In this document: one piece after another, positions 35,162 through 41,100 of the stretch
How positions within the stretch are numbered: the first letter of the stretch is position 1
Layout: every line of letters starts with the position of its first letter
NCBI RefSeq assembly: GCF_964204645.1
Contig: NC_134026.1
Location: forward strand, 2,728,001 to 2,792,000
Source: Tubulanus polymorphus
Lineage: Eukaryota; Nemertea; Palaeonemertea; Tubulaniformes; Tubulanidae
Direction of reading: 5' to 3'
DNA length: 64,000 bases
The notes under the pieces: model-generated
The model's input: the letters and a program-made list of their open reading frames with translations, nothing else
Told to the model about the DNA's origin: nothing
Database searches by the model: none
Position numbers and translations under genes: made by a program

Positions 35162-38100
35162 TTACTGGGGAGATTGAGGTGGAGCTCTGTGAATATTGCA
35201 CTCATGGTTTCGGAATTTTCGATAAAAGCTTTGAACGTAAGTGAAAACGCATTTCCAATCGGGTGTTTTCATACGCACCATATCCTCAACGTCTAAAAGT
35301 GGGGCGATGTCTGCATATTTTCTGAAATTTGAAAAATATTCAAACTGATGCATTGTTCATAAAATAAACCAGGATGGCCTAAGTAGTCATAAAACTACTT
35401 TGATTACACACGTAAACTCTAATGCTTCTGTACTCACTCTGCAGTTTCAAATGCTAAAGTGAAATTATATCTTCGCTTCTTCGGATTCAACTGAGAATAG
35501 TCAAAAGCTTCCGGATGGAAATGATGAATTAATGCACAAAACGCCATTCCATCAGCCCAGCAGCTCGAAAAATTGGTAAGACTGACATTCTGCAAAATGA
35601 AAACTAACGTATTTGACAAACTTATACGAAATACAAAAAAGCTCTTAATCAGGCATTCTGTTACAGTGATTTTCTTTAATCAGGTAAGTAAAAATGATTA
35701 ACTTCAGAGCAAAATTAACAGAAATATTCAAAAGATGTAGAATGTATGATCATTTATACGGTTTAACATGACAAAAAAACTTACAATTAGAATACTATCA
35801 AACAATGTTACTATAGAAATAGAGAACCTTATGAATATAAATAATCAGTTAATGCATTGACGACAAGAAAGAAATTCCCATCATTAGTTATATTAATAGA
35901 ATAATCATATCACGAATATGTACAAGCCACTAATACCCAAGAAGAAATCTAAACATATTGAAGATCCTAAAGAAAGGAAATACTCCACAACTATACATTT
36001 AAATATATATAAATGCATAACATGCAAACATCACAAAATATTAAGCAAAATACAAAAAAATCATGCGAAAGTCACACTGGAAATGGATATTACTGGCTAC
36101 GATACTTTGAGTACAGATTCAAAAACCATGAGACTATGGAATTTTAAAAATCTGTGCTTCATTTGGAAGCTAATTGTTCCTCTAGAAGTTGCTTGTTAGA
36201 GTTTTTGTTCAGTTATCAGTGAAGAATAATCAAAGATTGTCCTTAAACAGTGAGATCTTAATTGTCTAAGAATGTCACAGTTGCATTTTTTTTCACAAAT
36301 CATTCATGTAGCTATTTGCAGTGCGTTTTTAGTTTTCTTGAAGCACTGTGCACCACTACTATCACAGTTAAGCCAATACAAACAATACAAGGAATCTCAA
36401 CATCGCATGCAGGTAACAACAAATCTCTACTATAGGGGGCGTTACAGTAAAATAGGAATACCTCATATTGTTTAACCATAGCCGCGCACCAACTGAGTAA
36501 CATTTGTTTAATGGTACTCGGACTACGTTGTACACCAACCTTACCACCTCTACCTCCAGCACCGAGAAAACTGAGAAAACAAAATTATTAGTCAATAATG
36601 TCTTTAGAGCTTGGTGCGATGATCGTCAGTGTTAATATTGATCACTTAAAGCTGTAATTAGTATAAAGATTTGACAATATCATCGAGTTAATTTATGGAT
36701 AGTGTCAAAATACAAGTACAAGTGTATGTAGCTAGTCAATGTTGACATCAATTCATAAGCGATGTTTATAGTAAATCAAAATTAATTTGAGAAAAACATC
36801 CACTAAGCAAAAAACCAAGTGAACAAACTTTCAAAAATTCATTTTTGCAATACAGTTGCCCTTTTCTACAAATTTACCTGACCTATTAATCACAAATTTC
36901 CTAGATTTTCTAGATTTTCCATGAAAAGAAATTACCCTAGGAAAACTGGTCCCATGTATAATGACACTGTTATGCTATGTGAAAATTGATGAATTATGCC
37001 AGTTCTGTTTAAGCAGTGAAATGCTATACACTGTAATACTTTGTGTAAGTAAGATACGCGTTTTATGATTTTCATAGATAAGACATTATACAGTTAGCAT
37101 AAAACAAAGTGCTGATTATCAATTTTGAAGTTTGTCTGGTATTCTGTTAGTGATCAGTTTGGGTTAGACAAGGTAAGGGAACCTATTAGATGTGGTGAGA
37201 GCTATAATGAATATCAAGATTGAAACCCTGATTAAATTCCCTGATTATTAGAAAAAAAATAACAAATAGATTAGCATCTTGTGTGAATTTCAAGCATAGA
37301 GAAAAAGGATTTATTTGAATAACTTTTTCATATTTTTATACCTCGTAACCTTCAGTGTTGCGTTTTGCAAAGAGCAGCACGTCCTGTTTGATAGTGTTTG
37401 CATTCCTTCGAATATTGCCAAGAGGCAAGAAAGCTATTGGACTAGAGAAGAAAAATACGTTCATGCAGTTACAACGATAGAGACCCCCTGAAGTCTATAG
37501 AACGCGCTGTAAGTATGCGCTTCAATTAATAATCTTCTCAGTACATGCAAGAAAGAGAAATAAATCGTCAATAAGATAAAGTCTACAAAACAACTGCATG
37601 CAATAGTAGTGTTATTCAACTGTATCCATTTTAAATATCATCTGTTAATGATAAAGATAAATGCCTGAATAATCAAGTGAAAGCATTATTACATATGAAA
37701 TATGTTTTTATAGGCGACTTCATCTATAAAAGGAGCGAATGATGTATGGAGTTAAAAGTCTAATTATACTGGCGAACAAAAAAGTAAAAGTCCTAGTTTG
37801 AAAAATAAAGTATGGAAGTCATATTTGCGTATCAGTTAGTCGATTAATGGACCCAAAATGGATGGCAGGAAAGACTAAAGTTTTCTGCATGTCGTAAAAC
37901 TTGTAACTAATAAGATTCCCTAAAGAAGCATGACAAATTCATAGATTAAAAATAATGGGAATGGCTGAACTTTTTGTGGTGAGATATATGACTGATTAAA
38001 GGCTGTGCATTTGCTTGCACAATTTTATTTACTGAATTGTGTTACTATTGTTCAAGCTGGGTAATTGATTTGTACACTATATTAATCTTTTCAGTTATAT

Positions 38101-41100
38101 ATATTAAATTATCATTGCTATGTGCTGTGACACATTGTATTTTCATTATATTTTTGGGACGAAAATTTCGAAATTTTCTTCTCTTATTCTATTACTTGAT
38201 ATGAACTTAATTCACAATTTAGAGAAATAAATCAAGTTTTCATAACTTACTTCGGTTTTTTACCGGCATCAGGGTTAGCAGCAGTATCCATTTGTTTAAA
38301 TGCAGCCATTGCACCTCGAGCTCCTGTAGGTTTGGCTACAAAGAAACCAAATATAAAATTTCATTAGAAATTCATGCGTATGAAAATTTCTTAGCCACCA
38401 TCTTCATTTCAAAAATGCCTTAATAGGATTTCCAGCTGCAGAAATGATTTTTCTACAAAAATGAGTTTGATATGAAAAATAACTGGTAATAAGCACTTTT
38501 TGAATCACGAATTGTGACACTAAGAACCATTTCACGTCTTATTCCTGCCATTTTTTTGATGATACTAATACTGATACAGAGGTTACTGTACTGAGGAACC
38601 TCTTATCAGATCTAATAATAATCTATTAAAAAAAAAATCGTCCGCTATTGTATCTATGTGTACATAATTACATGTGTTTAATGTTTACATAGTTATACCT
38701 CAAATGCAGTAGCAAAAATCGTTTAGAATCTTTGCAGATCTTGATATTCTGTTGGGGGAGGATGGGGATAAGGGTACGTGCAAACTATACATATAACATG
38801 TAGTGATTCTACGAGGTTTTTCAGTGAAAATGACCTATGAAACGTCAAGCTGCTCTTCATATGAAGCTAATTTCATCAGAAATACCTTGAAAAATCGATC
38901 CGAACTTATTTCCTATCAACATTAATACAGAATATCAAACAAATTACTCACATATTCTAGCCTTACCTGTAATCGCATGTTTTAAAAATTATCTACCGTA
39001 TATCAGTGATTTAATGGAAGGGTAATCGACAAACTTTTTACGAACATGGTTGTAAGTATGAAGTGCATATGAACAGAGCGAAGGATGTATAAGGTGCGTG
39101 GAATACAGGGTTTTTAGTACCTCCCCAACTTTGCGTTTTCTCTTCTCGTTTCGTGACACCGTCTTTGCTGCTCCACGATTCCATTTTGACTGTAACTTGT
39201 CCCGACGTCTTCGGGCCGCTTGCGTTACCAAGCCGTTCGGCTATCTTGTTAGATGTGGTGTCTAAGTAAAAAACAAACCGAAAGCATTCCATTTACGCAT
39301 GCTGTAAGATGTAACAAAGTAAATAACAACAACGTAATCAGTGTTAATGTATAGATTCAAAATTTTTCGATGGAAATATTCACGGATGAAAAATCTTCTT
39401 TTTTTCGATAATCGAATATTCTACAATATTCTTATCGCTAGTAATGTTATTATTTGCTAATCATGACTGAAGCAAGAAGTGACTATCGTATCTAATCTTT
39501 CAGATTACGATCAAGATGCAAAATGAACTTTTTTTTAATATTTGTGAAGTTTGTCTTCTATGTCTAGAAAATCTATACATTAACTCACTGAATCCAGTAA
39601 CATGCAATTTAAATATAACAAATACATGTAACTTATCAACCTGATAGATATGAATAAATAATTTGTGAAGGACATATCTAATCTACTTGATAGAATATAT
39701 TGTTCTCAAAATTCATGATTCATGCATTTTTCACTAAAGTAAAATAAGTGTTTTTTTTTATGTGACTCAACACTAGTGACTCGACGCAAGCCATCATATA
39801 GGTTTCGAAAAATTTCATTGGTCATTCCAGTCACTTGTGCAATTTACATGTACTTGTGTACTTTATAGCAAGTTCGCCTTGAAGCCTGATTTGTTACTGA
39901 TGGTGCTCAGCCTTATTTCTCAATCACAGCTGCCACTGAGGGTGCACTGTGCATTTTACAATCAAAACATTGAACATTTTCGCGATTTTATCATTCAGTG
40001 CAAGACAATATTTTCCACACACGATGCGTAATACCATGCATGAATGATGAATATCTTTAGGTCCTCACCTGCGGCGCCGTAAACAGTGCCACCAAATCCT
40101 GCAACAGATGAAGTTGTCTTCTGAGTTCTCGTAGTAACTGTGCTGCCATCTACAAAACGAAATAGGATTACAACATTACACAATGATTCACTGATAAACA
40201 AAAATCACGAGAACTGGAGGCTGATTTTAAGTTTAGTTACGGGGTCCTGATCCCTGCATTCCCTTCGAGGTGGCTCTTTTTTTGTCAAGACAGATACATG
40301 TATCATCAAAACCTGCAAACTTTAAGAAAACAACTTGGAAAGTTAATGTGAATATTTTTACCTTTCCCTTTTTGAGTAGTAGTTGTAGTAGTAGTTTTAG
40401 TTTGTCCACCCGGGGTATCAAACGTTTCCGTCGACGATTGAGTCTCTTTTCGCGCGATTTCGTCGTAAGCTTGTAATTTCTTTTGTTTCGCTTCATCGGC
40501 TTGTTTATGTTTCATTTGTAATAATCGCTCGGAAGCTGATCCCAAACGATCGGATGTAGGAGTCGAAGCCTATACTCACGCACACGCGGTGGAAGAAGAA
40601 AATACAGACAGGTTTAATCAATCACAAAACACCTAAAATCAATCAATTCAAACTGGCGTATAGTGAGATGAAAGCTATTTTTTCTGTTTGTTAAAAATCA
40701 GCGTTGAAAGACCAGCTAGCATGTGTATATAAGTAAACTTTAAAAAAGATAACCAAGTTTTGTTTGCATTACTACAAAACTAATAAATTTTTCTAATTAC
40801 TATGTGTGGTTTCTATTTTCATACTGAACATTTCAAGGATATGTAGATCGACAATAGCAGACGGAAATATGACGAGAAACATTGCTGCTTACTATTTCAT
40901 GAATATGCATTAACTCCTTTTCTTTTCCCTCATCAGCTCGTTTCTTAGCTTCTAGAACATGATCTTCCTGGAAGCGTGGACCAGAACGTACGCTATCCGG
41001 TGCTTTAGATATATTCTGGTATTGCTGCAGTTTTTCTTGCCTGTCAGCTTCCGCTAATTTTTGACGTCTTTGAACCTCATCCTCATCCCCATTTCCTATT

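Follow-up and report, generated by a model that had tools for sequence, protein, structure and literature searches.

A smoothelin gene of Tubulanus polymorphus with two, very probably mutually exclusive, exons for the first CH-domain helix

Introduction

Smoothelin (SMTN) belongs to the cytoskeleton of muscle. In vertebrate SMTN, exon E20 replaces helices IV-VI of the CH domain, whereas helices I-III come from constitutive exons; all vertebrate SMTNs have a penultimate exon of 152 nt, and their helix I exon measures 115-118 nt (PMC10643981). Garg and Fisher (2023) found no other alternative splicing giving rise to variable CH domains (PMC10643981). Exon 8 of ACTN4, which changes three residues, constitutes a partial counter-example that contradicts this claim in part. 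Regarding the control of exclusive exons, in egl-15 of C. elegans RBFOX represses the upstream exclusive exon 5B via UGCAUG in the preceding intron (PMC3585155, PMC2880598).

Here we describe a smoothelin gene in a 64-kb stretch of the genome of the nemertean Tubulanus polymorphus (hereafter the window, meaning the whole stretch of DNA that was analysed), in which it is helix I of the CH domain that is encoded by two alternative exons. We also describe the sequence motifs that may govern the choice between them.

Results

The smoothelin gene lies on the minus strand, in a genome of 268 Mb assembled in 77 contigs. Seven exons from 42619 to 38251, followed by one of two alternative exons (A or B) and then by exons D and L, form a single open frame of 428 residues with A or 431 residues with B, plus the stop. 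The exons are the following, in positions of the window:

39121..42619, minus strand: S1-S6, upstream exons with the Smoothelin domain PF12510 (from the open frame and Pfam)
38251..38335, minus strand: U, common upstream exon of 85 nt, ending in phase 2, donor GTAAGT
37342..37441, minus strand: exon A, alternative CH helix I, 100 nt, phase 2 in and 0 out, weak donor GTATAA
36462..36570, minus strand: exon B, canonical CH helix I, 109 nt, phase 2 in and 0 out, weak donor GTATTC
35438..35589, minus strand: D, common exon of 152 nt with CH helices II-IV, its length matching SMTN E19 and SMTNL E7 (PMC10643981)
35162..35321, minus strand: L, last coding exon, with the remaining CH domain and the stop TAA; the single such exon found genome-wide

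The Smoothelin domain PF12510 scored 43.3 bits (cut-off 23) and stands in one frame with the C-terminal CH domain in the Pfam search. This single C-terminal domain is of type 2 and most like those of SMTN and SMTNL1: its best PDB matches were human smoothelin 2d87 (3.4e-46) and SMTNL1 2jv9 (4.2e-45), with alpha-actinin far behind. The penultimate exon, 35438-35589, has the 152 nt of its vertebrate counterpart, and both helix I exons belong to the same length class modulo 3 as the vertebrate ones (115-118 nt). Judged on these sequence features, namely the Smoothelin domain, the C-terminal CH domain and the 152-nt penultimate exon, the gene is a true smoothelin. A second smoothelin gene was not detected in the genome, the other matches being weaker CH proteins, and a search of the genome for a vertebrate-like alternative last exon found none, the last exon being single.

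Further upstream on the same strand (45535-47432), three exons encoding I-set Ig domains, together with a linker exon of 632 nt, continue in open frame into the first smoothelin exon (42539-42619). Since they join in one frame, a long Ig-Ig-Ig-smoothelin-CH protein may be a further product of the gene; this combination of Ig and smoothelin is unfamiliar to us. Upstream of the Ig exons, a disordered-looking open frame of 552 residues (49562-51220, minus strand), unmatched in Pfam, possibly represents the N-terminal end of the smoothelin gene.

A preliminary description of this DNA had proposed two phase-locked, mutually exclusive exons between U and D. Its coordinates for U, A, B and D, and its lengths for A and B, proved right to the base, with AG and GT borders on the minus strand. 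The open frame through the six upstream exons sets the phase of 38251-38335; both A and B take phase 2 from this exon and leave in phase 0 before 35438-35589, as had been stated. Both lengths are 1 modulo 3, and U+A+D and U+B+D are each open. Placed in series, the two exons do run into the TAG that had been predicted, for U+A+B+D reads ...GYE-FSRCWR-stop, with TAG after six codons. Joining U directly to D, with neither A nor B, leads to a stop after 20 further codons, inside D. These stops lie 240 nt (A+B) and 91 nt (neither) before the last junction. A stop usually leads to decay when it is more than 50-55 nt before the last junction, and since both lie beyond this distance, double inclusion and double skipping are predicted to decay; in other words, both premature stops should trigger nonsense-mediated decay. 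We found equal entry and exit phases, an open frame with each exon alone, homology between the exons (described below) and predicted unproductive messages with both or neither. The proposal that the message must choose one exon fits all of this, as well as the endpoint of the exons in the domain, and on these grounds A and B are very probably mutually exclusive.

How exclusion could be achieved is constrained by the introns. The one between A and B measures 771 nt, and every intron is of the GT-AG kind, with no donor that is evidently U12-type, so that neither crowding (steric hindrance) nor mixed spliceosomes (U2/U12 mismatch) account for the exclusion. Pairing between introns, in a crude test on whole-intron duplexes, gave interaction energies like those of shuffles (P 0.12-0.23). 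With such an intron and ordinary GT-AG sites, a splice from A to B would be within reach of the spliceosome. In this sense, A and B might be alternative without being strictly exclusive, one of them acting as a cassette, and double-included messages would be destroyed, lowering the smoothelin level. The length of the intron, too great for steric exclusion, and the position of the A+B stop agree with this possibility, but nothing positive favours it and both single-exon products are complete CH domains. We consider it unlikely, and keep strict exclusion as the preferred reading.

The two exons were also compared with chance expectation. Candidates were all segments of 70-160 nt within the 2661 nt between U and D that are bordered by AG and GT, fall in the right length class and can be read without a stop, and their 3' ends were scored against helix I of smoothelin, SMTNL1 and the alpha-actinins. 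Among the 41 candidates, B reached 61 (together with a shorter version nested in it) and A 37, while the next one scored -2; the best score in 400 dinucleotide shuffles was 26. No third helix I exon was present among these 41 open candidates in the introns. Local alignment of A with B likewise gave a score of 37, which was reached by 0 of 5000 shuffles, and the last 54 nt of both exons are 41% identical. Exon A is thus homologous to B and the pair looks like a tandem exon duplication, an old one given that only 41% of the nucleotides over the helix are identical.

Exon A is open in the required frame only. Among open intron windows, its codon scores rank in the top 2.2% and those of B in the top 0.2%; over its first 14 codons, A scores poorly as coding sequence. 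The Pfam CH match rose from 69.5 bits without helix I to 84.4 with B (+14.9) and 77.6 with A (+8.1), beginning at profile position 4 with either exon. By itself, A gave a weak PDB match, the best being the CH2 domain of alpha-actinin (E 0.2). It was found at this locus only and nowhere else in the genome, and scans of viral and prokaryote collections, chance animal contamination included, found no relatives. That exon A is short and that its own PDB match is weak would suit an exon-like intronic sequence arisen by chance; against this stand both shuffle comparisons, of the helix I score and of the pairwise alignment, which make the idea highly implausible and leave a duplicated helix I exon as the reading to follow.

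Concerning the encoded helices, both exons carry the TIKQ..LL helix ending in YE of the preliminary description, which consists of TIKQ and 14 further residues, 18 in each exon, and aligns without gaps. Over TIKQ...YE, 7 of the 18 residues are identical and 11 differ, and the linker preceding the helix also differs between A and B. Exon A swaps two otherwise conserved residues (W to F and C to A) with the hydrophobic pattern kept; the T.GYE of human smoothelin is retained in it, as is LL in the position where alpha-actinins have it. Because the hydrophobic rhythm, T.GYE and LL are all preserved, the CH fold should persist with exon A. Helix I of CH domains is placed across the surface formed by helices III and VI (PMC7240100), so the switch of the domain surface that had been suggested is likely; as a description it is incomplete, since two otherwise conserved positions, the W and the C, change too.

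Regarding the control of exon choice, four copies of TGCATG lie next to the exon pair:

37597..37602, minus strand: TGCATG upstream of A, the first of three within 135 nt
37544..37549, minus strand: TGCATG upstream of A
37462..37467, minus strand: TGCATG upstream of A, the nearest copy, 20 nt from the splice site and adjoining a possible branch point
36406..36411, minus strand: TGCATG 51 nt downstream of the B donor

Of all hexamers, TGCATG, the RBFOX site, shows the strongest enrichment over the 200 nt preceding A, where it occurs three times (p 1e-4); when the window is divided into 319 blocks of 200 nt, 5 of them contain some hexamer cluster as extreme as this one. A three-copy cluster of TGCATG within 200 nt is unique on either strand of the window, and the motif was absent before the nine other acceptors checked in the gene. 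At C4:24.07-24.09 Mb the genome codes for an RBFOX-like RRM, one exon of which shows 76% identity across 41 residues, the first part of the domain being in an exon 15 kb away. This genome has an RBFOX gene as well as UGCAUG close to the splice sites of the exon pair, which makes RBFOX the predicted regulator, and a candidate for controlling the choice between A and B. As a separate observation, TAACTG has 7 of its 18 copies in the window within the introns between U and D (35590-38250, minus strand), an excess with p 8e-6 when the 4096 hexamers are not corrected for.

An approximate matrix places the donors of both alternative exons among the three weakest of the gene. The weak donor of A, the loss of the conserved W and C, the poorly scoring first 14 codons and the repressor-like UGCAUG sites before it could all indicate that A is a decaying or dead duplicate, with B constitutive and A rarely or never spliced in, or acting as a poison exon together with B. 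Yet the donor of B is almost equally weak, and despite the age of the duplication (41% identity) the reading frame of exon A is still open, its two splice sites and two phases are intact, and it retains the CH helix pattern (LL, an aromatic residue, a small residue and T.GYE) found in smoothelins and alpha-actinins. A dead exon A therefore seems improbable to us.

Elsewhere in the window there are an intronless galactosyltransferase gene (18338-19417, plus strand; PF01762) and a PIG-B-like frame of an Alg9-like mannosyltransferase (19623-21497, minus strand; PF03901), whose C-terminal stretch looks TPR-like. Rfam gave no match within the 64-kb window. The sole 18S rRNA match found in the assembly is a short, 95%-identical fragment lying within an unrelated gene region (L028:1502-1575; G000:C11:9752252-9752325). 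Searches for the nematode SL1 sequence and for COX1 found neither.

Discussion

We regard it as quite probable that A and B descend from one smoothelin helix I exon, duplicated in tandem long ago, and that they are mutually exclusive, with a proposed control by RBFOX. The duplicated exon would be that of the C-terminal type-2 CH domain, B probably conserving the ancestral form and A being a specialised one. RBFOX would bind UGCAUG upstream of A and block the 3' splice site and the branch region of this exon, and at the site after the B donor it would help B; the arrangement corresponds to that of egl-15, where the upstream exon of the pair is likewise the repressed one. B would then be chosen where RBFOX is present, and A where RBFOX is absent or outcompeted. 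The outcome may be tissue-specific smoothelins sharing one CH fold and offering a different first helix to their partners, for which actin, tropomyosin, calmodulin or the disordered part of smoothelin itself are proposed. The actual use of exon A, its tissue pattern and its function are what we infer from the DNA.

There is as yet no settled view of what smoothelins use their single CH domain for. The predicted A and B isoforms differ in helix I and the short stretch preceding it only, and would offer a direct means of probing what helix I does. The UGCAUG pattern, additionally, names a specific and testable candidate regulator. Tentatively, and with somewhat less than even confidence, we suggest that a splice-selectable smoothelin CH domain arose twice, through helices IV-VI in vertebrates and here through a duplicated helix I exon under RBFOX control; the first helix of a CH domain would then be an exchangeable specificity module set by the type of muscle or nerve. 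The switch sits at another place than in vertebrates, which suggests that alternative CH domains have been selected for repeatedly. Searches of the open literature found no report of alternative helix I exons, but both isoforms may already stand in genome databases as automatic entries.

Among known systems, vertebrate SMTN E20/E21 is alike in that a smoothelin gene makes two C-terminal CH versions by splicing and has a penultimate exon of 152 nt. There, a cassette exon with its own stop changes helices IV-VI and helix I is constitutive, whereas in the Tubulanus gene helix I varies and the last exon is single; the position of the switch is accordingly new. The alternative exon 8 of ACTN4 (PMC4539665, PMC6912194) is also a replacement exon in an actin-binding protein, with its changes at the CH1/CH2 interface, but it concerns three residues in another part of the actin-binding domain. 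Exons 5A/5B of egl-15 and exons 8/9 of mammalian FGFR2 (PMC3585155, PMC2880598) are exclusive exons with UGCAUG upstream of the one repressed by RBFOX; they belong to another gene and protein domain, and the control that we propose here is a predicted one. Finally, tandem duplicated exon substitution events (PMC9741552) likewise involve homologous adjacent exons with equal phase, and frequently concern tissue-specific genes of muscle and nerve, although the text of that paper contains neither SMTN nor calponin. The smoothelin gene of Tubulanus is, in this sense, a new position for a known kind of splicing switch.
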